Source: Selenomonadales bacterium 4137-cl (GTDB taxonomy: Bacteria; Bacillota; Negativicutes; Sporomusales; UBA7701). From it: 64,000 nucleotides of DNA. How positions within the stretch are numbered: the first letter of the stretch is position 1; each line of letters opens with the position of its first letter. Location: positions 1,214,501 to 1,278,500 of the forward strand of contig JAUOZS010000001.1 of the NCBI GenBank assembly GCA_032334055.1. The letters run 5' to 3'. The notes beneath the pieces are model-generated. The model was not told the DNA's origin. It saw only the letters and a program-made list of their open reading frames with translations, and did no database searches. Shown here piece after piece: positions 30,503 through 56,193 of this stretch. The position numbers and the translations under genes were made by a program.

Positions 30503-31219
30503 ATGACAATTGATGTATACTTTACTCCCCAGGACTATATAGCCAGGCCGCCGTCAGGTGAATGCGCCGTCGCCGTCCTCGATATCTTCCGGGCGACGAC
30601 GTCGATGGTCACCGCCTTCGCCAACGGCTCTCGCCGCATTATACCCGTAAAGACGGTAGAAGAGGCCCTCGCTCTCAAGAAACGGCATCCGGGGGGGCTG
30701 CTGGCGGGTGAGCGTCAGGCACGCCCCATAGCGGGCTTCGATCTCGGCAACTCGCCCTTCGAATACAATCGGTCCGCGGTGGACGGCAAGACAATAATCA
30801 TGACCACCACGAACGGCACGACCGCTTTGAAGACGGCCGAACAGGCGACAAAAGTCTACATAGGCGCGTTTGTCAACGCCGCTGCCCTCTGCCGGATACT
30901 CTCCTCGTTATCGTCCGATATCGTTATTCTCTGCGCCGGTACCCGTGGGCAGCTGACCATCGAGGACGCTTTGTGCGCCGGGCTGCTGGCCGATAGGCTC
31001 GCCGGCCGCGGCGACCTGAGCGATGCCGCGGTTGCCGCCCTGGCGATATACAACGATTACCGCACCGACCTTGTCCGGCGGACTTCTTTGGGAACCCATG
31101 CCAGGTATCTCGCCGCGATCGGCTATGGCGCAGATATCGATTATTGCCTGCGGCAAGATCTTTTTGACATTGTCCCCGTATTTCAAAACGGCGAAGTAAC
31201 AGACCCGGCCGCTACTTAG
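30503..31219 (+). CDS. comB: 2-phosphosulfolactate phosphatase
   Basis: The 238-residue protein matches ComB: ECAVAVLDIFRATTSMVTA at the start, LAGERQARPIAGFDLGNSPFEY, TTNGTTAL, and CAGTRGQLTIEDALCAGL. ComB removes phosphate from 2-phosphosulfolactate, known from coenzyme M synthesis, but homologues occur in many bacteria that lack coenzyme M, where the role is unclear. It follows the M20 enzyme closely and ends within a terminator. Confidence 0.88.
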   Translation: MTIDVYFTPQDYIARPPSGECAVAVLDIFRATTSMVTAFANGSRRIIPVKTVEEALALKKRHPGGLLAGERQARPIAGFDLGNSPFEYNRSAVDGKTIIMTTTNGTTALKTAEQATKVYIGAFVNAAALCRILSSLSSDIVILCAGTRGQLTIEDALCAGLLADRLAGRGDLSDAAVAALAIYNDYRTDLVRRTSLGTHARYLAAIGYGADIDYCLRQDLFDIVPVFQNGEVTDPAAT

Positions 31220-42487: not shown

Positions 42488-44548
42488 GTGGGCAACATTG
42501 CCGAAGTAATCATCGCCAAGGTCGATCCGGTGGAGTACCTTACCTATAACTACGGAGTCAAGTTCCGCAAAGAGCCACGGTCATACCGCTCCCAATGTCC
42601 GGTGCATGACGGCTCCAGAGGCGACAGCTTCTCCGTACTGGGGAATAGGCTTACTTGCTTCGCCTGCGGCTTCTACGGCAACATTATCGACGCGGTGGCG
42701 GAGATAGAGGGCATCGACCAAACCTCCGCCATCGAGAAACTGGCAAACGAACTGAATCTGCCGATAGGTAGCTACGAGGAGTTCCAACGTCAGAAGACGC
42801 TTGCCGAACAGAATAAGGCCAAGCTTGCCAAGTACCGCCGAGGAATCACCCCCTACAAGGACTATCTCAATGGGGACAGATCGATATCGGATGAAACCAT
42901 CGAGGCTTTGCAACTGGGCGGCGACATCGATGGAATCATCATCCCCCTCATCAATTTGCAAGGCCAAGTGGTGGCTTTCGCCAGGCGGAACATGAACTAC
43001 AAGGCCAAGGGGCAACCGAAGTACACCAACACCCGCAATAACGAACTGTACGAGAAAGCCGAGTTCCTCTACAACTTCAACAGGGCGTTGAAGGAGATGA
43101 GGAAGCAACGTAGGGTTTACGTCTGCGAGGGCTACTTCGATGCGGCGGCAGCCGACCAACAAGGACTTCCCTGTGTGGCCTATGCCTCTGCCGACCTGAC
43201 CAGAGGCCACATCAAGGCTTTGAACGAAAGGGCAGAAGACCTATATCCCCAGTTTACCTTCTTTCTGGCGCCGGATAACGACGAAGAAGGTCAGAAGCGT
43301 ATCCCCCGGATGCGTGACAAGTTCCGCCAATTGGCTCCGAGAGCCAACGTCAGGGTGGTGCTACTGCCGGAGGGTATCAAGGATTTTAACGATGCCCATC
43401 ACGCCGGAATCCAGATCGGTGAGCTGCCAACCGAACCCCTTGACCTCTATGTACTAAAAAAGATAGTTAGTGACTGTCAGGGCGAGGACGAGGAATTCAC
43501 AGCCGCCAAGGAGTTCATGTCCACGGTGACCAACGAAATCGTCAAGGCCGAATGCGCGAAGTACCTGTCGCATAAGTGGCAACGCCAAGAGGACACGGTG
43601 CAGGGGTGGCTACAGGCCAAGTCCAACGACGATGACATGGCGAAGAGGTTTAAGGAACCGGAAGCCGCTATCGATGACCTCCTTGCCCTCTACGCATCCG
43701 GAGCCATGACTCTGGGATGGGAAACCATCGACTGGGGAGCCAACTCCTTCTATAAGACCGAGGTAATCATCCTAGCGGCACGCCCTGGCGTAGCGAAGAC
43801 ATGGATAGCATGTATGGTGGCCTTGCATCTGGCGATCCGCGAGAAGAAGCGTGGCATATTCTTTAGCCTTGAGATGTCTGCCGGGAGCCTCTATAACCGA
43901 ATGGTGGCTATTTTCCTTGGCAAGCCGATGTGGGAAGTTGAAAAACTAGTCAAGGAGAAAGACCCAACGGTACTAAATATAAAGGCGGCTTTGGAGAGTC
44001 GGCTCTATGTGGTGGATGACAACGACATCAACGTAGAGATGATGGACAAGATTATCGCCTACGCTAACCAACGGAAGTTTGATGAGCCGTGCGATTTCGT
44101 GGTCATCGACTACATGCAATTTATTAAGGGTTGTTCCAAGTACGATATTTTGGCGGAGGAAACCAAGGCTCTCAAGCCGCTTGCCAAGAAGAACAAGTTA
44201 TTGGTCATCGCCCTCTCCCAAATCTCACGCCAAGGCCGAGACTACGAGAGGCCGACCATGGAGATGCTCAAGGGGGCCGGTGAACTGGAACAGACTGGAG
44301 ACACAGTTGGTGGCCTCTGGGTTCCCGGTAACAATCCGGAACTGTCCGATGCGGAGCAGAAGAAGTTGGACGGCATCATTATGTTCGGCTTCCTCAAGCA
44401 CCGCAGGGGCGCCAGAATCCGTGACGTAGCCCTCCGGTTCGATACCGCCACTACACGCATCGTAGAGGTCAAGGAGCAAGCCGAGGTAGTAGTACAGAAG
44501 AAGAGGAGGACGCAAAATGCCAAACCTAAAGATTCCGCTCAAAGCTAA
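42488..44548 (+). CDS. phage primase-helicase (CHC2 zinc finger, TOPRIM, DnaB-type ATPase)
   Basis: GTG start behind GAGGTGA. The 686-residue protein joins three parts: a CHC2 zinc finger (CPVHDGSRGDSF ... CFACGFYG, residues 36-62), a TOPRIM core (RVYVCEGYFDAAAADQQG and FLAPDNDEEGQKR, about 215-275), and a RecA/DnaB-type helicase from about 380 on (FFSLEMSAGS, FVVIDYMQF, ALSQISRQGR). This is the layout of T7 gp4. The Walker A reads AARPGVAKT: the Gly before Lys is Ala, which is unusual and may weaken ATP binding. It would prime and unwind phage DNA. Confidence 0.9.
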   Translation: MGNIAEVIIAKVDPVEYLTYNYGVKFRKEPRSYRSQCPVHDGSRGDSFSVLGNRLTCFACGFYGNIIDAVAEIEGIDQTSAIEKLANELNLPIGSYEEFQRQKTLAEQNKAKLAKYRRGITPYKDYLNGDRSISDETIEALQLGGDIDGIIIPLINLQGQVVAFARRNMNYKAKGQPKYTNTRNNELYEKAEFLYNFNRALKEMRKQRRVYVCEGYFDAAAADQQGLPCVAYASADLTRGHIKALNERAEDLYPQFTFFLAPDNDEEGQKRIPRMRDKFRQLAPRANVRVVLLPEGIKDFNDAHHAGIQIGELPTEPLDLYVLKKIVSDCQGEDEEFTAAKEFMSTVTNEIVKAECAKYLSHKWQRQEDTVQGWLQAKSNDDDMAKRFKEPEAAIDDLLALYASGAMTLGWETIDWGANSFYKTEVIILAARPGVAKTWIACMVALHLAIREKKRGIFFSLEMSAGSLYNRMVAIFLGKPMWEVEKLVKEKDPTVLNIKAALESRLYVVDDNDINVEMMDKIIAYANQRKFDEPCDFVVIDYMQFIKGCSKYDILAEETKALKPLAKKNKLLVIALSQISRQGRDYERPTMEMLKGAGELEQTGDTVGGLWVPGNNPELSDAEQKKLDGIIMFGFLKHRRGARIRDVALRFDTATTRIVEVKEQAEVVVQKKRRTQNAKPKDSAQS

Positions 44549-44714
44549 AACCCCGTTACTGTTTATCTGCTACGCCCTGTGTATCACCATGATGGTCGTG
44601 GCGTTCATGGAGGTAATGACCAAGGATTATGGCTCCGCCTTATTTAGTGCCTTGGGAGCCGTGGGTTGGGGATGGGCTTGGCCTAGCATCATCGAAGAAC
44701 TCTCGGAAAAATAA
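44517..44714 (+). CDS. small two-TM protein
   Basis: ATG follows GAGGAGGACGCAAA and overlaps the primase-helicase end by 32 bases. The 65-residue protein has two hydrophobic stretches (about 13-32 and 38-55). Function unknown; a terminator-like hairpin follows its stop. Confidence 0.5.
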   Translation: MPNLKIPLKAKTPLLFICYALCITMMVVAFMEVMTKDYGSALFSALGAVGWGWAWPSIIEELSEK

Positions 44715-44736
44715 TCGAATATGTGTTCGATTTTTT
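44714..44736. terminator. hairpin with T run, also an SOS-box-like palindrome
   Basis: ATCGAA and TTCGAT pair around TATGTG, followed by T7, so it can terminate the primase operon. The same bases, CGAATATGTGTTCG (44716-44729), fit the Gram-positive LexA box at 13 of 14 positions, so a dual role is possible. Confidence 0.6.
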
Positions 44737-44748
44737 TACCCAAACCTA

Positions 44749-44777
44749 TTGTAATTCGTATCAAATGATGCTATACT
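44749..44777 (+). promoter_or_regulatory. promoter with operator in the spacer
   Basis: TTGTAA (44749-44754), 17 bases, TATACT (44772-44777). The spacer holds GTATCAAATGATGC (44758-44771), 13 of 14 matches to the dispersed palindrome. A bound regulator would block this promoter of the nuclease-kinase operon. Confidence 0.65.
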
Positions 44778-44824
44778 AGGGTTAGTGAAATACTATATTA
44801 GACGAAAGGAGGTTCACCCAAGAG

Positions 44825-45628
44825 TTGATAACCCACCTATCACCTTCCACGGTGCAGTCTTACCGGAAGTGTGGTAGACTCGTGTATTACCGGAAAATCA
44901 TGGGACTCCCTGACACAACCGTATATGCGGCTACTGCCTACGGAACGGCTATCCACCGATCCATCGAAACTCTCCTCCGTGAGAAGAAGATGGGCTTCAT
45001 CCCCTCAGTAGACGAAGTTATCCACCTATTTGACCAAGAACTCCGTGGCCTAGCCGACACTATTACGGTCTGGGGCGAAGACACCAAAGAACACCTGTTT
45101 GAACAGGGCGCGGCCTCACTTGATGAGTTCTGCAAGAAATGGTTGCCTCGTATCGCCCCGGCGGAGATCGAGAAGGAGTTCATGGTTCGAAGGGAAGGCC
45201 GGATGCCCATCAAGTGCATCGCAGACTGTGTAGATACCAACGATGCGGTCTGGGACTGGAAGACCGGACGAGGATTCACAGGTACTGCCAATTCGGCGGA
45301 GTATGGACTAAATATGGCTACATACGCCAAAGCCTTCTACGATGAACACGGCTACTTCCCCAAGTCCATCCGGATTCTACGCACCAAGTGGAACGGTAAA
45401 CTCAACCAGGCGACCCGCAAGAAAAAGTGGTATCACTCCTCATGGGAAATGGATGAACTGGTCATCCCTCCGGAAAGCATCCCCTATTACATGGGACTCT
45501 ACGACGAAACAGAAAAGGGTATTGCAGCCGGAGTCTTCCTACCCATCTCCGATGGAGGTGGCCTGTGTAAGAATTGCTCCTATCGAGGCAACCCCTGTGA
45601 TGTCCACATCGTGGAGGTAGGCAAATGA
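44825..45628 (+). CDS. PD-(D/E)XK nuclease, RecB/Cas4-like
   Basis: TTG 44825 follows AAAGGAGG at a 12-base distance. The 267-residue protein begins HLSPSTVQSYRKCGRLVYYRK (first Cys of an Fe-S site), has YGTAIHRSIE, the nuclease core AVWDWKTGRG, and ends with CKNCSYRGNPC, giving four Cys as in Cas4/RecB nucleases with an Fe-S cluster. It would resect DNA ends for the Rad52-like annealing protein. It overlaps the next gene by four bases. There is no CRISPR array nearby. Confidence 0.85.
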   Translation: MITHLSPSTVQSYRKCGRLVYYRKIMGLPDTTVYAATAYGTAIHRSIETLLREKKMGFIPSVDEVIHLFDQELRGLADTITVWGEDTKEHLFEQGAASLDEFCKKWLPRIAPAEIEKEFMVRREGRMPIKCIADCVDTNDAVWDWKTGRGFTGTANSAEYGLNMATYAKAFYDEHGYFPKSIRILRTKWNGKLNQATRKKKWYHSSWEMDELVIPPESIPYYMGLYDETEKGIAAGVFLPISDGGGLCKNCSYRGNPCDVHIVEVGK

Positions 45629-46287
45629 CCCAGTTACCTTCGCCCCAACTCAAGATAGGCTTGATAGGCCGGATATGCTCCGGTAAGGACACGGTAGGGG
45701 AGGTTCTCATCAAGACCCTCGGCTACCAGAGGTTCGCCTTCGGTGACCCGATCCGCTCCGTCTATCAAGTATATCTAGACGGTGGATGGCAACCTGCCTT
45801 CGAACTCCTCTGCCTCTATTCCGACACCATAGCAAGATTCACCACCACCGCCACCACCTTTAAGGACATCGCCAACAGTTCACCGACTCGGCGTGAGTTC
45901 CTCCAGAAGGTGGGGACATGGGCAAGGCAGCTTGACGATGACATCTGGGTTCGCACCACCTTCCGCCAACTCCCTTATTTAGTACAGGGTTATGGCGTGG
46001 GTGCGGTCTGTACCGATGTCCGCCGCCGCAGGGAGTACGAAGTCCTTCGGGACGCAGGTTTCAAGTTCATCCATGTCACCGCCCCGGAAGCCATACGCCG
46101 TGAGCGTATGCTTGCCAGAGATGCGTCCGCCGACACCTCGGTATTTGGACATGTCTCGGAACAGGAAATCGATGAAATCGGCAAGATGGCACACGCCACC
46201 GTCGAGAACGACGAAGGCAAGGCCAAGCTACTGACCGCCACCTTCGAAGCCATCGACACAATCCGGCAGTCTTTTTTTACCCCCTAG
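45625..46287 (+). CDS. P-loop deoxynucleotide kinase-like protein
   Basis: ATG overlaps the nuclease stop. The 220-residue protein has Walker A GLIGRICSGKDTV, an FGDPIRSVYQVYL segment and a lid with Arg residues (VTAPEAIRRERMLARD), as in phage dNMP kinases and dephospho-CoA-kinase-like proteins. Likely a deoxynucleoside monophosphate kinase that feeds phage DNA synthesis, in line with nrdD and dut downstream. Confidence 0.78.
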   Translation: MTQLPSPQLKIGLIGRICSGKDTVGEVLIKTLGYQRFAFGDPIRSVYQVYLDGGWQPAFELLCLYSDTIARFTTTATTFKDIANSSPTRREFLQKVGTWARQLDDDIWVRTTFRQLPYLVQGYGVGAVCTDVRRRREYEVLRDAGFKFIHVTAPEAIRRERMLARDASADTSVFGHVSEQEIDEIGKMAHATVENDEGKAKLLTATFEAIDTIRQSFFTP

Positions 46288-46329
46288 TGATACTAAAAAA
46301 GAATCAAATGAATCTAAGGAGGAATCAGA

Positions 46330-46869
46330 ATGAAAGACAATCTCGTACAGTTCCCCATCCAGGTAGCCAAATCCGACCTCGCCCTCGGCGACAAAGTCCG
46401 CGCCACCGCCATTCCGTCCGATATCAAGGATGAGGAAGACCTGGCGAAGTTCTTCGGTCAGATCATCGGCAAAGAAGGCTATGTCGCCCACCTCATCGAC
46501 GGCAGCGACCGTGTTGTCATCGACTTCGGCGGCACTCGCGGAACCCCCGGCCATGTCGCCATGTCGCCGGATGAGTTCAAACTCGTCGCCAAGGGTGACG
46601 GCAAGGTCTTCGACTGGGGACGTAAGTGGAAGATGGAAGAGATCGCCGTCCTCGCCTCGATCCCGCAGGATGTTCTCGCTGAGAACCCGATGGCGGAAAT
46701 GCTCAAGGGCATCCCTGTCAAGGTTATCAAGTCTGGCCTGCCCGACCACGACTACCAAGTGGTCCTGCCCCTCGGCCTCGGTCATGTCTGCGTGAACGAA
46801 GACAACCTCGTTACGCCGGATGACTTCAAGGCCCAGAAGGCCGTTGCTGTCGCCCCTAACCTTCACTAG
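46330..46869 (+). CDS. hypothetical phage protein
   Basis: ATG follows AAGGAGGAATCAGA, just after an operator-like palindrome at 46301-46314. The 179-residue protein is beta-rich with two similar halves (GKEGYVAHLIDGSDRVVIDFGG and VKVIKSGLPDHDYQVVLPLGLGHVCV), in a style that recalls small beta-barrel domains such as SH3-like folds. No family recognised. Codon use is C-ending, suggesting a well-expressed gene. Confidence 0.55.
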   Translation: MKDNLVQFPIQVAKSDLALGDKVRATAIPSDIKDEEDLAKFFGQIIGKEGYVAHLIDGSDRVVIDFGGTRGTPGHVAMSPDEFKLVAKGDGKVFDWGRKWKMEEIAVLASIPQDVLAENPMAEMLKGIPVKVIKSGLPDHDYQVVLPLGLGHVCVNEDNLVTPDDFKAQKAVAVAPNLH

Positions 46870-46872
46870 GAG

Positions 46873-47526
46873 GTGGGGGAGATAGAGTGTGAAGTCTTTA
46901 GCAACTGCCAAAACAGAGTCCTCTGTTGGCGTTGCGACGATTACGCCCTCTACTATCCCCTTGACAAAAAGATTAAATGCCCTCGCCAAGTGAGGGTCAA
47001 AGAAGAGCGAAAGCAAGCGAAAAAAGAGAAGAAGCAAACCTCCGCATCCAAGCGCGGCAGAGCCAATCGCAACGCAGGGAAAAGGGCGGAGAAGGGTCTT
47101 GAAAACCTCTTGACCAGTTGGGGCTATGAGTGTCGCCGGGTTCCATTGTCTGGAGCATTAAAAGGGTTAAACCTTGTTGGATGCTTGGATGACAAGCTAT
47201 CCGGCGACCTTCGCCTAACTGTCGGGGGTAAAGAGTTCAAGATCGAGTCAAAGAAGAGGGCAGACCTAAACACCTATTACAGGATGGTCGAAGAAACAGG
47301 TCCATTCGTTATCGATGGCTTTTGTATCGTGATGGGTGAGCAGAACTTCGAATTCCTGCTAAATGGTGCAAGGCTTTCGCCGGATACCGTACTACCCGAC
47401 AAACGGTTCAAGCGGCTCCATGACTGGTTCGACCAAGACGGTAGCGACATTGTCGCTATGAAGTCCAACCACCGCCAATGGCTGTTCGCCATCACACTAA
47501 ATAAAGCGAAGGAGTTAGCAACATGA
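46873..47526 (+). CDS. Holliday-junction resolvase-like nuclease
   Basis: The 217-residue protein has an N-terminal zinc-binding part (CQNRVLCWRCDDY), a Lys-rich linker, and an Hjc-like PD-(D/E)XK core: NAGKRAEKGLENLLTSWGYECRRVPLSGALKG, SGDLRL, KIESKKR. Hjc-type enzymes cut four-way junctions. The open frame starts with GTG at 46873, which directly abuts AGGAGG, so the exact start is unclear. It adds to the recombination set of this prophage. Confidence 0.75.
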   Translation: MGEIECEVFSNCQNRVLCWRCDDYALYYPLDKKIKCPRQVRVKEERKQAKKEKKQTSASKRGRANRNAGKRAEKGLENLLTSWGYECRRVPLSGALKGLNLVGCLDDKLSGDLRLTVGGKEFKIESKKRADLNTYYRMVEETGPFVIDGFCIVMGEQNFEFLLNGARLSPDTVLPDKRFKRLHDWFDQDGSDIVAMKSNHRQWLFAITLNKAKELAT

Positions 47527-47789
47527 CCAAGCCCGAAGTGCCGGAAGCCATCCAGCCGTATGTGACTTAGTTCACCGACCTCTGCAAGAAGATTGGGGAC
47601 GGCGCAGGTATCCCCGATGTAATCGTCGCTCTGATGATTACTAACGCCGCAGAGGCTCTGGAAGACCTCCTCAACGACTACGCCGAAGGCGACGAGGCCA
47701 AGGAGCAGGACATCATCGATGCTCTCAAAACCTGTATTCGCGGCGCCCACGTTGCCGCCCAGATCGATAACCAATTCCCGCCGAACTAG
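47523..47789 (+). pseudogene. 88-codon phage gene interrupted by an in-frame TAG
   Basis: ATG 47523 overlaps the resolvase stop and reads MTKPEVPEAIQPYVT, then TAG at 47568-47570, then continues in the same frame to a second TAG at 47787: FTDLCKKIGDGAGIPDVIVALMITNAAEAL and on. The rest is a sound helical, acidic protein with no other disruption. A G to T change (GAG to TAG) explains it. It is probably a nonsense mutation; read-through is possible. Confidence 0.6.
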
Positions 47790-47801
47790 GAGGAAAGAAC
47801 A

Positions 47802-48086
47802 TTGTTAGCCTTCCAAAGTGAAAAGGACAATCGCATCGTAATTCCCGGCATGGGTACTTTGGAAATCGGCTCGTACACCGACAAAGCAGAGAAGGAAGTC
47901 TTCGCCATCTACTTCGAGGACACTTCCAAACGCCGGAAACGTACTGGCGGCGAAGACGGCGGTACTCAAGAGGTTGACCAACGCTATCTATTAGCTAGAA
48001 AGGCCACCTTTGCCGAAGCCCAAGAAGCCATGCGGAACATCGCCAACGAGATGCGTGAGACTGGCAAAGTCATCAAGGTGATGTAA
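47802..48086 (+). CDS. hypothetical phage protein
   Basis: TTG 47802 follows AGGAGGAAAGAAC. The 94-residue protein begins with a beta-rich part (RIVIPGMGTLEIGSYTDKAEKEVFAIYFED) and ends in a helix. It sits in the tightly packed operon before nrdD. No family recognised. Confidence 0.5.
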   Translation: MLAFQSEKDNRIVIPGMGTLEIGSYTDKAEKEVFAIYFEDTSKRRKRTGGEDGGTQEVDQRYLLARKATFAEAQEAMRNIANEMRETGKVIKVM

Positions 48087-48478
48087 TGGATTACGGAGAA
48101 ATCCGTGAAGCTTATCTGTCCCTCCCAGATAACGACCTGTATGGGGCTTACATTCTCAAAACGCAGGCCGTTACCTTACAGGAGACTTTCGAATCCGAAC
48201 TAGCCCAAATCCGCCACATGGCAAACGACTTCAAGGTCGATGTGGACTTCACACAGGCCAGGCGGTCCAAGGAACTGGCTCCGGATAAAGTCAACGAGGG
48301 GGAACGCCTGTCCAAGCAAGACGAGCAAGTCTTGCAGGCCAAGCGGAACTACAACCAAGCACTTCTCGCCGTAGAACTCAAAGAAGCACAGGTCAGGTTC
48401 CTTGAAAAGGTATACTTCGACTGCCGTGCCTTACTTGCCAGAGGGGAGAAGAAAATCCATTCAGACCGGAGTGAGTGA
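48086..48478 (+). CDS. coiled-coil hypothetical phage protein
   Basis: ATG overlaps the previous stop by one base. The 130-residue protein is nearly all helix with a probable coiled coil over residues about 60-120 (LSKQDEQVLQAKRNYNQALLAVELKEAQVRF). Its stop (TGA) abuts the TTG start of nrdD. Function unknown. Confidence 0.5.
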   Translation: MDYGEIREAYLSLPDNDLYGAYILKTQAVTLQETFESELAQIRHMANDFKVDVDFTQARRSKELAPDKVNEGERLSKQDEQVLQAKRNYNQALLAVELKEAQVRFLEKVYFDCRALLARGEKKIHSDRSE

Positions 48479-50191
48479 TTGTTGCAGAAGACTCGCAAAC
48501 TCATCTGGGACTACATCAAGAAATCCTCATGGCGTGTGAAGGAAAACGCAAATATGACCTTTAGCCATTCCGGAATGGTAGGCTTCGTGGCGAACTACTG
48601 CATCTCCGACTTCGTCCTCGCCGAAGTCCTACCGCCGGAAGCGGCGGAAGCCCACACCGAAGGTTATATCCACATCCACGACCTGTCCGGAGGGACGCAG
48701 GACTACTGCATGGGCATCGCCCTGGATTCCCTCCTGTACAAGGGTCTGGAGGATGGGGAAGTTCCCAGACACTTCCTCTCCGCCATGGGCATTATGATGA
48801 ACGCCCTGTACACCATCTCCCAAGAGGTGGCCGGAGCTGTGGCCTTCAATGCGGTAGACGCATTAATGGCTCCGTACATCAAGAAAGACAAACTCAGTTA
48901 CGACTGGGTGAAGCAAATCATCCAGACCATCATCTACAGTATCAATGTCAAGGGTAGAATCGGCTTCCAAGCACCGTTCTGCAACTTCCAGTTGGACATC
49001 ACCGTCCCCAAGCGGCTCAAAGACCAGACGGTGGTCATCGACGGCGAGGTAATGCCGTTTACTTACGGCGACTGCCAAGCGGAGATGGACATGTTCAACA
49101 AGGCTCTGCTTGAGGTGATGATGGAAGCACGCCGTGTCCTCTCCTTTCCGGTCATCAACATCGGCGTGACCCGCGACTTCGATTGGGATTCGCCTCTCGC
49201 CGAAACCATCTTCCGGGCTGTCGGCTCCATGGGTCAACCCACTATAAATAACTATGTTAGTGGAGAGTACGACCCCGACTCCGTGAAGAGCATGTGTTGC
49301 TCCCTCCGCCTAGATATGACTAAATTATTCAAACAAGCCGGTGGACAGTTCGGCAGCGGAGATAACACCGGATCGATAGGCGTGGTGACCATCAACATGC
49401 CGATGCTTGCGGCGGAGGCCGCAGGGGACAAGGCCAAGCTGTTCGACCTCATCGACCACTACATGGACATCGCCGACATCGCCCTGACTGAGAAGCGCGG
49501 CTTTATCGAGATGATGATGAAGAACGGTATGTTCCCCTACCTCAAGCGGTTCGTCGATGACTTCTCCAATTTCTTCTCGACTATCGGGGTTATCGGCCTC
49601 AATGAGATGTGCCTAAATATGGGGTTGCCGGATATCAGTCACGATGAGTCGGTTCTCTTCGTGGAAGAGGTTATGGACCACATGAACTCCAGACTGGTTC
49701 ACTACCAAGAGATGCGAAAGACTTTCTACGGTTCGTATCGCGGCGTGGTGTACAATCTGGAGTTGGTTCCCGGCGAAGGTGCTACCTACCGCCTAGCCAA
49801 GCACATGAAGAAGAAGTACCCCAACGCCCACACCGCCAATGGCACAGGCGGCATGTACTTAACCAGGGGATGCTGGCTCCCTGCCGACAAACAATTTTCG
49901 CTACGCTTCTCTGCTCAACACCAGAGCAGGCTCCAGAAGTTATTTAGCGGGGGTGCGAACTGGCAATGGCACTTTGGTCAAGTCATTCACGACTGGAGAG
50001 CCGTCAGGGACATTATCTACAAACTGGTCAACGAAACGGAGTTGCCGTTCATATCCCTCTCGCCAGTCATCGCCGTCTGCCCGATCTGCGGCAAGCTTCA
50101 AGATGACAGGCAATGGTGTGAACACGAACTCACGCCGGAGCAAATCGCCGAACTTCGGCAAAGGGGGATTGAGATTGATGAAACCCGCTAA
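48479..50191 (+). CDS. nrdD: anaerobic ribonucleotide reductase large subunit, lacking the glycyl-radical end
   Basis: The 570-residue protein is a class III reductase: HTEGYIHIHDLSGGTQDYC, the active-site segment SVKSMCCSLRLDM with the thiyl-type Cys pair, TINNYVSGEYDPDSVKS, NGTGGMYLTRGCWLPAD, and a C-terminal zinc region VCPICGKLQDDRQWCEHELT. It makes deoxynucleotides without oxygen. NrdD proteins normally continue past this zinc region to an R-V-x-G-Y motif with the radical Gly; this one stops at GIEIDETR. That missing part appears as a separate gene at 51253-51378. The gene lies in an operon with nrdG and dut. Confidence 0.93.
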   Translation: MLQKTRKLIWDYIKKSSWRVKENANMTFSHSGMVGFVANYCISDFVLAEVLPPEAAEAHTEGYIHIHDLSGGTQDYCMGIALDSLLYKGLEDGEVPRHFLSAMGIMMNALYTISQEVAGAVAFNAVDALMAPYIKKDKLSYDWVKQIIQTIIYSINVKGRIGFQAPFCNFQLDITVPKRLKDQTVVIDGEVMPFTYGDCQAEMDMFNKALLEVMMEARRVLSFPVINIGVTRDFDWDSPLAETIFRAVGSMGQPTINNYVSGEYDPDSVKSMCCSLRLDMTKLFKQAGGQFGSGDNTGSIGVVTINMPMLAAEAAGDKAKLFDLIDHYMDIADIALTEKRGFIEMMMKNGMFPYLKRFVDDFSNFFSTIGVIGLNEMCLNMGLPDISHDESVLFVEEVMDHMNSRLVHYQEMRKTFYGSYRGVVYNLELVPGEGATYRLAKHMKKKYPNAHTANGTGGMYLTRGCWLPADKQFSLRFSAQHQSRLQKLFSGGANWQWHFGQVIHDWRAVRDIIYKLVNETELPFISLSPVIAVCPICGKLQDDRQWCEHELTPEQIAELRQRGIEIDETR

Positions 50192-50297
50192 AGGATTTTA
50201 TTTCTGGGAACTGGTTCGCTTCAATATCGGCCGGGACTACGACCCTAAGTTAGTAGGCATGGTGGGCAAAATCCACCGCCAGTACGCAGGGGTGTAA
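50178..50297 (+). CDS. 39-codon ORF after nrdD
   Basis: ATG 50178 lies inside the last codons of nrdD in another frame. The peptide begins MKPAKGFYFWELVRFNIGRD and is well formed (aromatic start, basic end) but matches nothing known to me. Its place exactly where nrdD loses its radical domain is notable. The gene may be an insertion product or a small partner. Confidence 0.35.
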   Translation: MKPAKGFYFWELVRFNIGRDYDPKLVGMVGKIHRQYAGV

Positions 50298-50299
50298 CC

Positions 50300-50878
50300 A
50301 TGAGAATCTTCAATACGCAGGTTTACGGACTTCGTGAGAGCCTCATCCGTTCCGGTTATCCGATGTCTACCGAGATTCCGGACATGATGGAAGCTATCGC
50401 CCAGGCGGACTGGGTGAATGTCAACGACAGGGCATCGCGGCTTGGACAGTCCACGCCCGGCTCCGGTCACGACTGCTTCCTCAAGGGCATCCGTGTTCAA
50501 TGCGATATCGAAGCGCCGTCCTACTGGTGGCCCCAGTTCCAACGCTATCACTTCGCCGACATCATATCGTCGCAGAGCAAGATGCACAGAATAACCAAGT
50601 TCGATATCTCCTCCCAATGCACCGAGGATGTCCACCCGATGGCAATCGCCCTCGCCGAAGACCATATTGCTAAATATATCAGGGGCGAGATAACCATCGA
50701 CCAGATGATGGCGAATATCCCCATGGGTTTGCAGCTCACCGCCGGAATTGACCTCAGTTACCTGCAAATCAAGACGATGTGCAGGCAGAGGGACGCTCAC
50801 AGACTGGAGATGTGGAGGATATTCAAAGCATGGGCAAACACCCTACCGATGGCAAGGATGTTAGGCGTGGTAGTGTAG
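50300..50878 (+). CDS. hypothetical protein inserted between nrdD and its radical domain
   Basis: ATG 50300 is three bases after the preceding stop. The 192-residue protein (FLKGIRVQCDIEAPSYWWPQFQRYHFADIISSQSKMHRI ... FDISSQCTEDVHPMAIALAEDHI) has a His/Arg/Ser-rich core. The QxQRYHF ... SxQSKMHR pattern vaguely recalls the RHR motif of ThyX-type enzymes, but I would not assign it. It lies in the nucleotide-metabolism operon, so a role with nucleotides is a fair guess. Confidence 0.55.
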   Translation: MRIFNTQVYGLRESLIRSGYPMSTEIPDMMEAIAQADWVNVNDRASRLGQSTPGSGHDCFLKGIRVQCDIEAPSYWWPQFQRYHFADIISSQSKMHRITKFDISSQCTEDVHPMAIALAEDHIAKYIRGEITIDQMMANIPMGLQLTAGIDLSYLQIKTMCRQRDAHRLEMWRIFKAWANTLPMARMLGVVV

Positions 50879-51066
50879 GCAAATGCCTACGGTGCGGCGC
50901 CGAAACGATGCCGGAGGCCAGTCAATGCACGAACTGTGGTCAAATTCTAGCTAGGAGGTTCAAGAAGCGTGACCTTTCACGAAAGAGTATCCATGTATGC
51001 GGATATCTGCGGCAAAGCGATGAGCGAAGCCATGGACAAAAATTTCACCGAAGCCAAAAGCGTTGA
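50830..51066 (+). CDS. possible zinc-ribbon ORF overlapping its neighbours
   Basis: An open frame from ATG 50830 (GGAGG eleven bases upstream) has a clean zinc ribbon, CLRCG ... CTNCG. It overlaps the previous gene by 49 bases and the next by 98. The overlap with two better genes makes it doubtful as a full-length protein. If real it may be a short zinc-binding protein. Confidence 0.3.
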   Translation: MGKHPTDGKDVRRGSVGKCLRCGAETMPEASQCTNCGQILARRFKKRDLSRKSIHVCGYLRQSDERSHGQKFHRSQKR

Positions 51067-51247
51067 TCCTTTCGAATTCTTCTGCGGCATGGTGATAGCC
51101 ATGGATATCTTCCGCAAACAGGTTCTGGGCGGACAGGAAAACCCCCTCAATCTTGTATCCAAAGTCAATGAGGCGGTCTTCACCATCCTTCTCGCCGATA
51201 TGGCAAAGGGCGGCAAGGTGGTAGTTAGTGAGGCCGAAGGGGGGTAA
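50969..51247 (+). CDS. hypothetical phage protein before the radical-domain gene
   Basis: GTG 50969 follows AGGAGGTTCAAGAAGC. The 92-residue helical protein (ERVSMYADICGKAMSEAMDKNFTEAKSVDPFEFFCGMVIAMD) has two Cys and no known motif. The next gene, the glycyl-radical segment, starts six bases after its stop. Confidence 0.55.
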   Translation: MTFHERVSMYADICGKAMSEAMDKNFTEAKSVDPFEFFCGMVIAMDIFRKQVLGGQENPLNLVSKVNEAVFTILLADMAKGGKVVVSEAEGG

Positions 51248-51252
51248 AAGCC

Positions 51253-51378
51253 GTGAAGCAGAAAGTGCAGGTGCGAACTGAACGTTATCTCCGGTGTGTG
51301 GGCTACTACGCCAAGGAATCGTCCCTCAACGAGGGCAAGCGCCAGGAGTTCGCAGATCGCCAACCCTTCGTAAGCTAG
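51253..51378 (+). CDS. detached glycyl-radical domain of the class III ribonucleotide reductase
   Basis: GTG 51253 lies nine bases after AGGGGGG. The 41-residue protein begins MKQKVQVRTERYLRCVGYY and continues AKESSLNEGKRQEFADR. This corresponds to the end of NrdD proteins, where R-x-V-G-Y-Y holds the radical Gly (here Gly17) and a W/L-N-x-G-K-x-x-E-F stretch follows. The upstream nrdD stops just before this segment. nrdG, the activase that makes the radical, starts 10 bases downstream. I infer that the reductase works as a two-piece enzyme, as the separate radical protein YfiD does for pyruvate formate-lyase. Confidence 0.8.
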   Translation: MKQKVQVRTERYLRCVGYYAKESSLNEGKRQEFADRQPFVS

Positions 51379-51388
51379 GAGGGGTGCT

Positions 51389-51823
51389 ATGAGGTTAGCG
51401 GGGGTTGTGCCAGAGGTTGTGACTTGCTATCCTGCCATGGCTACGGAAGTGTTCTTCCAAGGTTGCGACAGGGGGTGCAAGGACTGCCACAATCCCTCCC
51501 TCCTCCCCTTCGATGGGGGAGAGGAGTGGGGCATCGAGCAGGTAGTCAACGCCATCGATGACTGGTCTGGGGTAATATCTCTGACAGGCGGTGATCCCCT
51601 TCGCCAAGGGGCCGACTGCAAAGCATTGGCACTTCGGCTCCGCGAGTGCTACCCAGGCAAGCAACTGTGGCTTTTCACCGGAGAGGTTCCGGAGCGGCTA
51701 CCACTATGGGTTTACCGGGTCTTCGACGTTATCAAGACCGGTCCCTATATATATTATTTAGCAACAGGAGGCTTCCCGGCCTCATCAAACCAACAACTTT
51801 TGCAAAGGGGTGTCCACTATTAG
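51389..51823 (+). CDS. nrdG: anaerobic ribonucleotide reductase activating protein (radical SAM)
   Basis: ATG 51389 follows AGGAGGGGTGCT. The 144-residue protein has the radical-SAM Cys motif CDRGCKDCHNPSLLPF (CxxxCxxC), the GGDPL segment (SLTGGDPLRQGADC) that binds SAM, and LWLFTGEVPE, at the usual NrdG size. It uses a 4Fe-4S cluster and SAM to create the glycyl radical. Its neighbour is the separate radical-domain gene. Confidence 0.93.
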   Translation: MRLAGVVPEVVTCYPAMATEVFFQGCDRGCKDCHNPSLLPFDGGEEWGIEQVVNAIDDWSGVISLTGGDPLRQGADCKALALRLRECYPGKQLWLFTGEVPERLPLWVYRVFDVIKTGPYIYYLATGGFPASSNQQLLQRGVHY

Positions 51824-52342
51824 ATGGAGCCTATAAAAGTCGTAGTCAAGAAGAACCAGGACAAAGCCGTCCTACCGGAGTACGCCACTGATGGTGCGGC
51901 CTGCTTCGACCTCGTGGCAGCGGAGACTGTGGTAATACCGCCGGGGGAAACCAAGAAGATAACCACCGGACTCATCTTTGAAGTTCCGGCAGGGCATGTG
52001 ATGCGTGTCTATCCCAGAAGTGGGGTATCCCTCAAAACCCCCTTGCGGTTAGCCAACTCGGTTGGCATCATCGACTCCGACTACCGTGGCGAGGTAGCCA
52101 TCCTTCTGACTAACACCGCCTCACGGAGCCAACACTTCTCCCATTGTGTCTACGCCATCGACGGTTCCGAACTCTCCTATGGCCCTTACGGCGGCATCCC
52201 CTATGACCAGACCTACGTCATCCGGGCGGGGGAACGCATCGCACAGGGTGAGATTATACCTCTGCCGAGGGTAGAATTCGTAGAGAACGAACCATCCGCC
52301 ACCAAGCGTGGCAAGAAAGGCTTCGGCTCTACGGGTACATGA
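51824..52342 (+). CDS. dut: dUTP diphosphatase
   Basis: ATG directly follows the nrdG stop. The 172-residue protein shows dUTPase motifs in order: ATDGAACFDLVAAE (1), YPRSGVSLKT (2, RSG), NSVGIIDSDYRGEVAILLTN (3, with the catalytic Asp), RIAQGEIIPL (4), and KRGKKGFGSTGT (5, the P-loop-like tail). There is an insertion of about 25 residues between motifs 3 and 4 (SHCVYAIDGSELSYGPYGG). It removes dUTP and supplies dUMP. Confidence 0.93.
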   Translation: MEPIKVVVKKNQDKAVLPEYATDGAACFDLVAAETVVIPPGETKKITTGLIFEVPAGHVMRVYPRSGVSLKTPLRLANSVGIIDSDYRGEVAILLTNTASRSQHFSHCVYAIDGSELSYGPYGGIPYDQTYVIRAGERIAQGEIIPLPRVEFVENEPSATKRGKKGFGSTGT

Positions 52343-52614
52343 TACACATCTTCCTCGTTGATTATGGCGACGAGGGACACTACTACAGATTCCTGACAAA
52401 GGGCGATAAAGAGCGGATAGAGCAATACCTTCGGCAATTCTCCAACGATGTAAGATTCGTCGATACGAAAGCAGAAGACAAGAAAACGCCCAGAAAAGGC
52501 AAAGCAATCCCAGGCGGCTTCATCCTCAAGGTTACTTATGGCTATGACAAGTGCGACACGTTTAGTTCGCGCAAGTCGAAAGCGGACCCGGATGTGAGAC
52601 ACCATGCCATATGA
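52339..52614 (+). CDS. hypothetical phage protein
   Basis: ATG overlaps the dut stop (ATGA). The 91-residue protein starts MIHIFLVDYGDEGHYYRFLTKGD and ends basic (SRKSKADPDVRHHAI). It overlaps the sigma-like gene by 11 bases. No family recognised. Confidence 0.5.
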   Translation: MIHIFLVDYGDEGHYYRFLTKGDKERIEQYLRQFSNDVRFVDTKAEDKKTPRKGKAIPGGFILKVTYGYDKCDTFSSRKSKADPDVRHHAI

Positions 52615-53317
52615 CCGGATTGAGGCAATCCTAACCGAGGTGAAGGAGGGGCGGTTGTCGGAAGCATCCGCCGTCCGCCGTCTGGAAGCTATCTATGAAC
52701 TGGATGAAGAAGATCAGAGTAGGCGGCAACGCCAAGTGGCTGAGAAGGTAGCCCCCCATATTCGGCTATATTCCGCCTCTCCGGAGGAGGTATTGCTGGA
52801 GAAGGAACGCCTCGCCACCATCGCGGAGTTTTACCACAACTTCAAGGAGCATCTATCGGAACGCTACCAGACCCTACTAGACTTATATATAGTGAGCGGT
52901 TGGAGCCTTGCCAAGGTAGCGGACGAGATGGGCATTGAGAGACAGACCGTCAACAGTTACTTGCAAAAAATCCAGAAAAAATTCCGGAAATGGGCTTACA
53001 AAGACCCCAAAAAAATCCCTTATATATGGGGGGACATTTACGACTCCCTTCAAGGTAGGGTTCGTGAAGTGTATCATACCTCCACCTCCAAGCCTCCGGG
53101 GCTACCGTTTGAAAGTGCTATGAAGGTGGAGAGTGCAGGATGGTACACCACGAAACAATATGGGCAACGCAAAACCATCTACGGAACAAAGACGGAATGT
53201 CGGTTGCAGGAATACTTCCGGAGCCGTTTCGGAGATGACATCACAACCTGCCCATTACTATGTGGGAGGGTTAGATGTACAAGCACCATGAAGACGCTCT
53301 CAATGCCATCACCGTAA
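52604..53317 (+). CDS. sigma-factor region 4-like HTH protein
   Basis: The 237-residue protein has an N-terminal coiled-coil region and, at residues about 85-130, a sigma-70 region 4-type HTH: LSERYQTLLDLYIVSGWSLAKVADEMGIERQTVNSYLQKIQKKF. Phage proteins of this type act as late activators or as ArpU-like regulators. The C-terminal 100 residues carry no known motif. It overlaps the start of the next gene by 43 bases. It could recognise the phage-specific promoter motifs noted elsewhere (inference). Confidence 0.65.
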   Translation: MPYDRIEAILTEVKEGRLSEASAVRRLEAIYELDEEDQSRRQRQVAEKVAPHIRLYSASPEEVLLEKERLATIAEFYHNFKEHLSERYQTLLDLYIVSGWSLAKVADEMGIERQTVNSYLQKIQKKFRKWAYKDPKKIPYIWGDIYDSLQGRVREVYHTSTSKPPGLPFESAMKVESAGWYTTKQYGQRKTIYGTKTECRLQEYFRSRFGDDITTCPLLCGRVRCTSTMKTLSMPSP

Positions 53318-54060
53318 TCAAGCGTGTGGATGCGGATGAAGTAAGAGTTATCGACCTGGCGGATATACATTACGGCGCACTAGCGTGCCTCAAGACTAAA
53401 TTAATTAATTTAGTGCAGAGGATACTGGCGATTCCCAACCTGTTCGTCATCATCGGCGGTGATTCCACCGAGTCCGCAAATACCGTTTCAAGGTCTAGCC
53501 TCTACGACGAGGCTTGCCACGGTAGCGACCAGATTCTTCAACTCCGCGAAATACTTAAACCTCTGGCGGATGCCAAGCGGATATTGTTCGTCCGTTCCGG
53601 CAACCACGGAATGAAGAGAGCCAAAGCCACCAACGGCATACCGCCGGAACAGATGCTTGCAGCTCTCCTCGATGTGCCGTTCTTCCGAGGCGGCGGCATC
53701 GTGATACTGAACGCCCGAAAGAACCAATACATCATCGCCACATGGCATACCGGAAAGGCTCCGGCAAGATTTGCGTGGCTACAGACCAACGTCAACTTCT
53801 TTGAGCATAAGCACGATGTAGGGCAGAGAACGGTTCTCTTCGCCACGCCCAACCGCCTGACCAAGCAATGGCTAGTGAGGCCGACCATAAACGTACAGAC
53901 CTCCAGCTTTCTGGGATGGGCCGGTTACGCCATGGACGAGGGATACGCACCCTTGCCGAACCATGTACCTGTCGCCGTGTTTAGCGGACGCAAAGAGGAC
54001 TGGGATGTCTACGTTCTGGATGACATCCGGTTACTTGAACGTAGCCTTGGTATGCCCTAA
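53275..54060 (+). CDS. calcineurin-like metallophosphoesterase
   Basis: ATG 53275 follows GGGAGGGTTAG. The 261-residue protein shows the metal motifs of the family: DLADIHYG, VIIGGDSTES, RSGNHGMKR and a late His in TWHTG. It may cleave phosphodiester or nucleotide bonds, or act as an SbcD-like phage nuclease. The codons for TKLINLV include a 20-bp perfect palindrome at 53395-53414 without any need from the protein. Confidence 0.8.
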   Translation: MYKHHEDALNAITVIKRVDADEVRVIDLADIHYGALACLKTKLINLVQRILAIPNLFVIIGGDSTESANTVSRSSLYDEACHGSDQILQLREILKPLADAKRILFVRSGNHGMKRAKATNGIPPEQMLAALLDVPFFRGGGIVILNARKNQYIIATWHTGKAPARFAWLQTNVNFFEHKHDVGQRTVLFATPNRLTKQWLVRPTINVQTSSFLGWAGYAMDEGYAPLPNHVPVAVFSGRKEDWDVYVLDDIRLLERSLGMP

Positions 54061-54073
54061 AGGCACGGAAGAA

Positions 54074-54087
54074 GCATCGTTTGATGC
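54074..54087. promoter_or_regulatory. operator-like palindrome before the methyltransferase gene
   Basis: GCATCGTTTGATGC is a symmetric variant (11 of 14 positions) of the dispersed palindrome, placed 29 bases before the methyltransferase start. Confidence 0.4.
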
Positions 54088-54115
54088 GCGAAGAGAATCA
54101 AGAAAGGACGCTTGT

Positions 54116-55930
54116 ATGAGCATTAACCAGGGATTGTTTTCTTCTGCGACAGACGAATGGGCAACGCCCCAAGACCTTTTTGACCAACTAGATAAGGAGT
54201 TTGGCTTTGAGGTCGATGTCTGCGCCCTTCCCCATAATGCCAAGTGCGCTAAATATTACAGCCCTGAGATGGACGGTCTTTCTCAAACTTGGCGTGGGGT
54301 TTGTTGGATGAATCCGCCCTATGGCAGAACAATCGGACAATGGGTGAAAAAAGCTTACGAATCCAGTCTGTATGGAGCAACGGTGGTTTGCCTTCTGCCA
54401 GCGAGAACAGATACCAGTTGGTGGCACGACTACTGTATGAAAGGCGAAATAAGGCTAATCCGTGGGCGGCTAAAGTTCGGCAATAGCAAGAATAGCGCCC
54501 CATTCCCAAGTGCCATAGTGATTTTCCGCCCGAAACCATCGCCAGTTCCTAAACTTAAACGACTAAAGCTTGGCTCCCTGTTCGACGGGATCGCCGCGTT
54601 CCCTTTCGCTGCCAGGATGTACGGAATCGAATCTGTCTGGGCAAGCGAGATAGGGCCTTTCCCCATTAAGGTCACATCCTTCTGGTTCCCCGATATGAAG
54701 CACCTTGGCGATATAACTAAAGTTAGTGGGTACGACATCGAGCCTGTCGATATCATCACTTTCGGCAGTCCCTGCCAAGACCTCTCCATCGCCGGAGAGC
54801 GGAAGGGTCTTGATGGTGAACGTTCCGGCCTGTTCATGGAGGCCATTCGCATTATCCGAGAAATGAGGGAAGCGACGAATGGCGTATATCCAAGAATCAT
54901 TGTTTGGGAGAATGTCCCCGGAGCCTTTAGCAGTAACAAGGGTAGAGACTTCCAAGCCGTTATCGAGGAAATCCTCGAATGTCCGGTTCCTCTTCCTCGA
55001 TCTGGACGATGGGAACCAAGCGGAATGGTCGTCCGGAGAGGGCGCTCTCTTGCGTGGAGGGTTCTCGATGCCCAATATTGGGGAGTCCCCCAAAGACGTA
55101 AGAGAATCTTTCTTGTCGCAGATTTTGGAGGTCAATCCGCACCCCAAATACTATTTGAGTGGGCAGGCTTGCAGGGGGATTCTGAATCGTGCCAATGCCA
55201 GGGGCAAGCAGATACCGGATTTACTCCGCCAAGCTTTGGAGCAACAGGCACAGAACCCATAACCTTTAGCGTGGGCAATCTCGTCCGCCGCGCCGATGCA
55301 GACCCCGACGATAGCGGAATCGTGAAGACGCTCCGCAGCGACATGGGCGACCAACATCCCTGTCTGGTGGAGCCGTCCTTACTAGATATATCTAGTACCT
55401 ACCGAATCTCTTACGCCATGCAGTCATTCGGAGAATACAAGCAATCGGAGCAGGCATCCTCTCTCAAGCAAAGGGACTACAAGGACGCAACCGACCTTGT
55501 CTTCGAATGGCACAACCAGGATAGCCGTATCACAGGCCCCATCGATGTCGCCTGCACCCTCAACACCAACGCCAACGGCAGGGAGGGGCATCTGGTAGCC
55601 ATACCGATTACGGACAAGGCAACTAGATATAAGGGCGGCGGCCCGACCCGCAACAACGATGGCTCTGGCAACGGTCTGGGCATAGGCAAGGATGGCGACC
55701 CATCGCCAACCCTCACCGCCAACGATAAGCATTCGGTATTCGACGGCTACTACCGTGTCCGCCGCCTGACTCCTCTGGAGTGTGAAAGATTACAGGGATT
55801 CCCAGATGGGTGGACGGACATGGGCAGCGACACCGCCAGGTATAAAGCACTAGGCAATAGCGTGGCAGTACCGTGTGTCCGGTTCCTGATGTGCCAGATA
55901 CGCCGCTTCCTCGCCATGCCGATTCACTAA
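54116..55930 (+). CDS. fused adenine-N6 / cytosine-C5 DNA methyltransferase
   Basis: ATG 54116 lies after AGAAAGGACG; the frame is open to 53963. The 604-residue protein joins two enzymes. Residues about 1-145 match phage Dam-type adenine methyltransferases (EWATPQDLFDQLDKEFGFEVDVCA, CWMNPPYGRTI). From about 150 on it is a C5-cytosine methyltransferase: LGSLFDGIAAFPFA (motif I), GSPCQDLSIAGE (IV, catalytic Cys), WENVPG (VI), QRRKRIF (VIII), RRLTPLECERLQGFP (IX) and ALGNSVAVP (X), with a long target-recognition region. No restriction enzyme is nearby, so it likely protects phage DNA against host restriction. Confidence 0.92.
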   Translation: MSINQGLFSSATDEWATPQDLFDQLDKEFGFEVDVCALPHNAKCAKYYSPEMDGLSQTWRGVCWMNPPYGRTIGQWVKKAYESSLYGATVVCLLPARTDTSWWHDYCMKGEIRLIRGRLKFGNSKNSAPFPSAIVIFRPKPSPVPKLKRLKLGSLFDGIAAFPFAARMYGIESVWASEIGPFPIKVTSFWFPDMKHLGDITKVSGYDIEPVDIITFGSPCQDLSIAGERKGLDGERSGLFMEAIRIIREMREATNGVYPRIIVWENVPGAFSSNKGRDFQAVIEEILECPVPLPRSGRWEPSGMVVRRGRSLAWRVLDAQYWGVPQRRKRIFLVADFGGQSAPQILFEWAGLQGDSESCQCQGQADTGFTPPSFGATGTEPITFSVGNLVRRADADPDDSGIVKTLRSDMGDQHPCLVEPSLLDISSTYRISYAMQSFGEYKQSEQASSLKQRDYKDATDLVFEWHNQDSRITGPIDVACTLNTNANGREGHLVAIPITDKATRYKGGGPTRNNDGSGNGLGIGKDGDPSPTLTANDKHSVFDGYYRVRRLTPLECERLQGFPDGWTDMGSDTARYKALGNSVAVPCVRFLMCQIRRFLAMPIH

Positions 55931-55947
55931 ATATAGCGGAGGACAAC

Positions 55948-56193
55948 ATGGTCTATATTGTGCTGAGTAGCAATGGTATTTACGGCGGCTACACCGACGA
56001 GGCCAGAGCCAAAGCCGTGATGGAACGGTTCAACGACGATGAACTGTACATCGCACGGAAGAAGAATCCTGACACGCCGATGTTCCACACCAACATCGTA
56101 GACGAATCCTTTGTCTACGTCTACGAGGACGAGATGTTCGTGGAAAAGATTCGGGACGAGAGGTATTACGAAGACCCGAACAAGATGGAGTAG
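55948..56193 (+). CDS. small acidic hypothetical phage protein
   Basis: ATG 55948 follows GCGGAGGACAAC; the frame is open into the methyltransferase gene. The 81-residue protein (MVYIVLSSNGIYGGYTDEARAKAVMER) is acidic and rich in Tyr and Asp/Glu. This alpha-beta start recalls a small family of phage proteins but I cannot name it. Confidence 0.5.
   Translation: MVYIVLSSNGIYGGYTDEARAKAVMERFNDDELYIARKKNPDTPMFHTNIVDESFVYVYEDEMFVEKIRDERYYEDPNKME

Follow-up and report, generated by a model that had tools for sequence, protein, structure and literature searches.

A putative two-subunit class III ribonucleotide reductase in a prophage of Selenomonadales bacterium 4137-cl, with the glycyl-radical loop on a 41-residue protein

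NrdD, the catalytic protein of class III ribonucleotide reductases (RNRs), which are oxygen-sensitive enzymes that make DNA precursors, is usually described as one chain that carries its own radical. A prophage of Selenomonadales bacterium 4137-cl appears to depart from this description, since its nrdD gene ends early and the radical loop is found on a separate small open reading frame (ORF). The window, which is the whole stretch of DNA that was analyzed, covers 64,000 nucleotides (contig JAUOZS010000001.1, positions 1,214,501 to 1,278,500) and is part of a host genome of 4.5 Mb in three contigs.

There are several described systems with which this locus can be compared. Split nrdD operons are carried by plasmids of Pseudomonadota. 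In one of them, Cupriavidus necator H16 pHG1, the gene row is nrdD, a gene for a 66-residue radical protein that is itself named nrdD, and nrdG. According to the relevant passage of PMC2864759, which cites Siedow et al. (1999), complete denitrification in H16 requires NrdDG. Since the H16 enzyme is split and is reported to be essential, a split NrdD enzyme seems to work in a cell. The same passage gives NrdDG of C. metallidurans as Rmet_5137 and Rmet_5139, with one number skipped, and in the C. metallidurans region (L196) a radical ORF lies right behind nrdD. Two-chain RNRs of other classes are also known. NrdJa/NrdJb is a natural two-chain RNR, but it is of class II, with a cobalamin radical and another split point (in the passage cited of PMC9669993). 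Aeromonas phage Aeh1 NrdA is likewise a phage RNR of two polypeptides and is still functional, but it is of class I, and its split is due to insertion of a homing endonuclease and not to the separation of a radical domain (PMC3653736). Six split phage nrdD genes were reported by Dwivedi et al. (2013); section 9 of that paper describes introns, inteins or fragmentation and mentions no separate radical gene (PMC3653736). Small free proteins that carry a radical glycine for a large barrel enzyme are represented by YfiD/GrcA and by Y06I of phage T4. The part of Andorfer et al. that treats them recognizes no validated spare parts other than YfiD and Y06I, both for pyruvate formate-lyase (PFL), and considers spare parts for other glycyl-radical enzymes possible (PMC8683613). 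YfiD repairs a damaged continuous enzyme, whereas the NrdD in the window is made without a radical segment. A trans-acting radical subunit of NrdD was not announced in the titles and abstract openings of the best-ranked papers listed from the open-licence literature.

The locus in the window is made up of nrdD (48479..50191, + strand), the standalone glycyl-radical ORF (51253..51378, + strand), and nrdG (51389..51823, + strand). As in pHG1, nrdD ends after the zinc knuckle and is followed by a separate short radical ORF and nrdG. Unlike pHG1, where the small gene comes after 142 nt, the genes do not adjoin, with 1061 nt and other ORFs between the nrdD stop and the radical ORF; the large part also has no ATP-cone region. 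The radical ORF ends 10 nt before nrdG. In its fold, finger-loop CC, zinc knuckle, nrdG partner, and radical motif, the system resembles continuous NrdDs of the PRK08270/NF006126 type, from which it differs in having the radical segment on another polypeptide and no N-terminal ATP-cone region. It is quite likely that the window encodes a prophage class III RNR of two subunits, with the radical loop on the 41-residue one.

The nrdD gene has a TTG start and encodes 570 residues, and it was identified by Pfam NRDD, NCBIfam PRK08270, an AlphaFold model, and a match to T4 NrdD. The protein covers positions 1-525 of 562 in NRDD (E 2.6e-112) and positions 100-646 of 684 in PRK08270 (E 9.5e-174). By these profile matches it has neither the C-terminal glycyl-radical segment nor the N-terminal 99 positions of PRK08270. 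The first ~99 positions of that profile are presumably the ATP-cone region. A first-pass annotation, made by a model from the letters of the sequence, had stated that this NrdD stops before the radical motif while keeping CCSLRLD and a zinc region, and the end of the NRDD match at position 525 agrees with it. Cys273-Cys274 (codons 49295..49300, + strand; SMCCSLRLD) align with the near-invariant CC of relatives and, by analogy with the class III RNR literature, are the putative finger-loop cysteines. A zinc knuckle, C534-x2-C537-x9-C547-x-H549 (50078..50125, + strand), was recognized by alignment with relatives, and these four residues may bind zinc.

The AlphaFold model of this NrdD, built with 48 relatives, has a mean predicted local distance difference test score (pLDDT) of 87.5 and a predicted template modeling score of 0.89. 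Its sole stretch with pLDDT <50 is residues 275-293, directly behind the two cysteines. With VIA-align the model matched P. copri NrdD (8p2s_A) at Z 34.5 and a root-mean-square deviation (rmsd) of 2.0 over 453 residues, and T4 NrdD (1h7b) at Z 34.3 and rmsd 2.3 over 459 residues. Residues 26-576 of the T4 chain correspond to residues 26-541 of the model, and the best alignment ends before Gly580, the radical glycine of T4 NrdD according to the passage cited of PMC2795772. Since Gly580 lies just beyond the structural match, the barrel of the NrdD in the window seems whole and the radical loop seems to be the missing part. The large part looks, in the model, like a class III RNR fold with a complete barrel.

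The radical ORF has a GTG start and encodes 41 residues. Its candidate radical glycine, Gly17 (codon 51301..51303, + strand), lies in the motif R-C-V-G-Y-Y and falls in an invariant alignment column. The ORF matches NRDD positions 533-561 (E 5.5e-5) with 22.5 bits, which is under the 26.2 bits that Pfam sets as its curated whole-protein cut-off. It also matches positions 550-579 of TIGR02487, a model of 581 positions (E 3.5e-5). Weak scores with curated models are expected here because the match spans merely 30 residues. NRDD is covered without overlap by the large protein and the 41-residue ORF, and the earlier proposal that the ORF just before nrdG is the missing end of NrdD is thus borne out by alignment of both pieces to the NrdD families. 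A hidden Markov model (HMM) of the radical domain was built from 54 distinct NrdD tails, with the window excluded, and was compared, at Z=1000, with all 1498 stop-to-stop ORFs of at least 25 residues in the window. It found the 41-residue ORF at E 1.3e-8 and 30.3 bits, and the next ORF at E 3.3. A frameshift was considered as the reason for the missing nrdD end and was rejected, as among these ORFs this HMM had no other match below E 3. Across 20 aligned radical domains, of which the window ORF is one, the invariant columns are the radical Gly, N26, G28, and R36. The codon usage of the ORF resembles that of coding sequence. The guanine-plus-cytosine percentages at the three codon positions are 62/36/71, compared to 53/36/73 for nrdD, and the codon log-odds on this strand are positive only for its own frame (+0.22), with -0.29 and -0.37 for the two remaining ones.

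Based on the sequence and the model, a mechanism can be proposed. The large NrdD subunit would contribute the barrel together with the finger-loop cysteines and zinc knuckle, and the 41-residue subunit would supply the glycyl-radical loop, docking at the site where the C-terminal loop of an ordinary NrdD enters the barrel. NrdG would then abstract a hydrogen from Gly17, and the finger-loop cysteine would relay the radical from Gly17 to the nucleotide. Docking, formation of the radical, catalysis, and the activity of the phage pair are all predicted in this way.

The same division of NrdD was found elsewhere. The loci came from the best 80 of 88 chromosomal loci, the best 80 of 252 viral loci, 12 of 33 plasmid records, two phage records, one relative's genome, and the window. 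Eight of the 175 loci outside the window were dropped since the NrdD ORF was too short; four of these are broken by stops or frameshifts (L037, L082, L115, and L162) and the others are cut by a contig end or fragmentary (L075, L078, L081, and L216). Together with the NrdD in the window, this leaves 168 NrdDs of sufficient length for a judgment. The relatives' NrdDs of another type (L089-L106) and the T4-like NrdD in L108 were left out of this number. The radical segment is on the same ORF in 143, it is lacking in 24, and one is cut by a contig end. By source, the split NrdDs make up 1/1 in the window, 5/75 in genome_contigs, 10/78 in viral_contigs, 0/2 in phage records, 0/1 in the relative's genome, and 8/11 in plasmids, a share that is not a rate as the plasmid records were chosen matches. 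A count over all loci gave 159 NrdD-like ORFs with a radical domain and 39 without, and these 39 include truncated, broken, and repeated window copies as well as NrdD types missed by the radical HMM.

The split lies at the same joint in these proteins. When 15 split rows were compared to 34 continuous rows, the split NrdDs end shortly after the zinc knuckle and the continuous ones go on into, for example, EVYSRVxGY. The NrdDs of the window, L111, L130, and L139 have in common a tail with the pattern H-[ST or LT]-x-E-x-[LI]...GI, possibly a docking or capping segment. A separate radical ORF is on the same record for 22 of the 24 split NrdDs. The pairing of an NrdD lacking the motif with a small radical ORF, for which the first-pass annotation had proposed a search, is therefore found in phage contigs as well, and 21 records besides the window keep both pieces, where that annotation would have counted their absence from all other genomes against it. 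Its suggestion of a two-polypeptide reductase with the radical domain supplied in trans gains support from this recurrence at one joint, as far as sequence and modeling can show. L111 and L148 had no radical ORF in their whole 22-kb records, and nrdD is near the contig end in both. The small radical ORF of L006 runs off its contig. Six standalone radical proteins that were scanned had no Pfam or NCBIfam model of their own and matched the ends of full-length NrdD models only. Genome pipelines named the small radical genes 'nrdD' and once 'hypothetical'. Two records of the viral collection, L142 and L190, have a chromosome-like gene order.

For 17 of the 24 split NrdDs, the radical motif starts no more than 230 nt past the last nrdD codon. 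Because of this, the evidence does not reach as far as the earlier idea of an insertion of the small genes at the split point, and fission and gene insertion were probably separate events. Other ORFs lie between nrdD and the radical ORF in three split cases, the window, L139, and L175. In L139 the radical ORF is 1.4 kb downstream of nrdD, with small ORFs that include a zinc ribbon between and thyX after. In the phage contig L175 (4211-4817), an HNH/NUMOD4 endonuclease (HNH_3 E 2.2e-15, NUMOD4 E 1e-11) lies exactly between nrdD and the radical gene, in parallel to the split of Aeh1 nrdA, and a dUTPase follows. In two large phage contigs the radical ORF is unlinked to nrdD and on the opposite strand, at a distance of 69 kb in L125 (nrdD about 80905-82548, plus; radical ORF 151600-151728, minus) and about 135 kb in L121 (nrdD about 165994-168012, minus; radical ORF 30547-30672, plus). 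The L125 radical ORF is complete with 55 residues open, and the profile match takes in one TAG. In L121 an nrdG-like ORF, identified by motif, adjoins nrdD. These unlinked genes argue for a radical subunit that acts in trans.

Further observations were made on the distribution of the split. A split nrdD is also present in metagenomic assemblies of Margulisbacteria (L048), Diapherotrites (L006), and Micrarchaeota (L037, where nrdD has an internal stop), and the architecture therefore seems to occur in archaea as well as bacteria. Treponema vincentii (L206, L082) is outside the count; its nrdD has a frameshift in the middle of the gene, and an nrdG-like ORF lies about 167 kb away, next to a gene in which the radical domain is followed by a glutaredoxin-like tail. 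The viral L115:4932-6677, also outside the count, has the order radical gene, nrdG-like ORF, nrdD, with one in-frame stop inside nrdD. In Spirochaetales (L063:7732-8298), a radical gene has a glutaredoxin/thioredoxin-like tail (Glutaredoxin E 0.0021, below cut-off), and a similar-looking CPNC tail, judged by eye, ends many continuous NrdDs.

Another possibility is that the two pieces become one product at the RNA or protein level, through recoding, an intein, an intron, or trans-splicing. Other phages do have nrdD genes interrupted by group I introns and inteins (PMC3653736), and there is a weak HNH-endonuclease match (phrog_20467, E 0.024) on a doubtful zinc-ribbon ORF between the pieces. However, three ORFs of 39, 192, and 92 residues separate them, and the corresponding genes of L121 and L125 lie on opposite strands at a great distance from each other. 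No Rfam family was found at E up to 1 across 44000-56000, the 12 kb around the locus, where splicing of the two parts had been named as a possible objection, and no intein or homing-endonuclease Pfam family was found in the ORFs that separate nrdD and the radical ORF. Joining is extremely unlikely.

The ORF of 39 residues (50178..50297, + strand) lies over the nrdD stop. It has codon log-odds of +0.29 in frame and no Pfam, PHROG, or NCBIfam match at E up to 1. The 192-residue phage protein (50300..50878, + strand) belongs to phrog_6721 (E 1.4e-50), relatives of which are present in Clostridioides, Fusobacterium, and Desulfovibrio phages. A ThyX-like nature was considered for it and is unproven; one relative (L110) matched Thy1 at merely E 0.13, hhalign against one ThyX gave no match, a PDB profile search gave two phosphoglucomutase chains only (E 0.014 and 0.04), and a single-sequence model with pLDDT 33 was useless. 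The ORF of 92 residues (50969..51247, + strand) has a codon score of +0.33 to +0.44 and no Pfam, PHROG, or NCBIfam family below E 0.1. The zinc-ribbon ORF (50830..51066, + strand; Zn_Ribbon_1 E 8e-4, below cut-off) overlaps its neighbors and is a doubtful gene, with a codon score of -0.40 in the part that overlaps 50969-51247. It was considered as a possible NrdD end (CLRCG...CTNCG...HVCGYL; phrog_487 E 0.38), and the likeness was taken as chance because the codon score is negative at HVCGYL and another frame is coding there.

The gene nrdG encodes a putative radical S-adenosylmethionine activase of 144 residues (Fer4_12 E 5.4e-15, phrog_626 E 7.1e-17; TIGR02826 E 1.8e-14, under the curated cut-off of that model). 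A dUTPase gene (51824..52342, + strand; phrog_135 E 2e-63) comes directly after it in the same run of nucleotide-metabolism genes. The surroundings resemble a phage early-gene region, and 9 of the 10 proteins scanned have a PHROG match. The surrounding genes encode an Erf-like annealing protein, a primase/helicase, an exonuclease, a deoxynucleoside monophosphate kinase, a RusA-like resolvase, the dUTPase, a sigma factor, a DNA repair exonuclease, and a DNA methyltransferase.

The 41-residue protein could instead be a spare part for host NrdD that has been cleaved by oxygen, in the manner of YfiD, and not an obligate subunit. Standalone NrdD-type radical proteins do coexist with an intact NrdD in the host genome, and phage T4 carries the YfiD-like Y06I (in the part cited of PMC8683613). 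Yet the NrdD encoded alongside the 41-residue protein has no radical segment of its own, and the small protein is nearer to the tails of PRK08270-type NrdDs than the host NrdD tail is. With the radical-domain HMM, in which neither sequence is included, it scored 30.3 bits and the host tail 16.7; with the A2 profile, in which the window ORF is itself a row, the scores were 60 and 18.5 bits. When the small protein and the host tail are aligned, only 8 of 26 residues are the same. A role as a spare part for the host enzyme is thus very unlikely.

The host genome has other standalone radical proteins. One of ~90 residues (L003 / G000:C1:3469775-3470047) has a conserved front part and an NrdD-type radical motif, with 0.73 identity to the host NrdD tail over 30 residues. 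It matched no Pfam or NCBIfam model of its own. ORFs of this type were counted by eye in 46 of 60 genomes, the host's included, as frames of <250 residues with a match from query position ≤6 to ≥86. This protein is a candidate spare part for NrdD, by analogy with YfiD for PFL. Pairing of these proteins with the NrdD tail of their own genome was examined in five genomes and was not retained, as identities were 0.60-0.73 to the own tail and 0.60-0.72, as means, to others. A 162-residue version of the same radical protein is encoded at L004:1171-1656 / G000:C1 about 447 kb, between genes that appear by eye to encode a DNA polymerase and a DNA methyltransferase. This locus is possibly another prophage, and weak relatives of the protein were found in two gut phage contigs.

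A maximum-likelihood tree of 57 catalytic domains, 21 split and 36 fused, has 10 changes between the split and fused states, of which at least seven are forced by starred branches; without L111 and L148 there are nine. The label is clustered, with 10 changes compared to a mean of 17 when shuffled, and the direction of the changes is not readable from this tree.

Several points weigh against a working two-subunit enzyme in the window. The NrdD is a lone branch of length 2.43 with an uncertain placement, and it deviates in 51 columns, three of which are gaps, that are conserved in at least 14 of 15 relatives, including R309M, H365F, N463R, and S464G. Because of the long branch and these columns, this NrdD may have changed or lost its chemistry or its substrate. 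The radical ORF has 30.3 bits with the radical-domain HMM, compared to 38.3-75.9 in 20 other loci, and only L130 is lower (21.0 bits). The host has a continuous NrdD of 682 residues with an nrdG-like ORF beside it. The best other NrdD among 60 genomes, the host's included, is 39% identical. When viral_contigs was scanned with single proteins, neither NrdD nor the 192-residue protein revealed a close prophage relative; scans with NrdG gave 720 phage records with identities under 60% and three viral loci that are distant. The unlinked pairs in L121 and L125 depend on the correct assembly of metagenomic contigs. Even if split NrdDs in general are functional, the pair in the window could thus be a changed or failing one.

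These points bear on the possibility that the locus is a remnant, in which gene insertions disrupted a phage nrdD that used to be continuous, the gene is now decaying, and the host NrdD does the work. The long branch and the many changes at conserved positions would fit this, as would the complete host NrdD with its nrdG-like ORF and the finding that no NrdD from the 59 other genomes in the set of 60 exceeds 39% identity. On the other hand, none of nrdD, the radical ORF, and nrdG is interrupted anywhere along its length, the codon use of the radical ORF is coding-like, and the same split is kept in many genomes, unlinked pairs included. A continuous host NrdD had been put forward in the first-pass annotation as a fact that would refute the two-part enzyme; such a host gene does exist, but alone it is no proof that the phage pair is useless. 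A decaying remnant is unlikely, and a two-subunit reductase is the preferred reading.

It is possible, though tentative, that class III RNRs repeatedly became true two-subunit enzymes in which a protein of 39 to 82 residues, or a longer one with a redoxin-like domain, is a replaceable radical cartridge. If so, when oxygen cuts the chain at the radical glycine, only the cartridge would have to be discarded and renewed and the costly barrel would be kept. The dose of the cartridge could also be set separately, even from a distant locus. The recurrent split form offers a two-part system in which the installation of the radical by NrdG and the movement of the loop in and out of the barrel can be studied, and split pairs would allow the repair of an oxygen-damaged enzyme by peptide swap to be studied. 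Together with the candidate spare parts for NrdD, they make the question of Andorfer et al. about spare parts beyond PFL testable, for instance in C. necator and other harmless organisms. An enzyme that has long been assumed to be a single chain thus looks like a natural two-part machine that is found in phages, plasmids, and cellular genomes.

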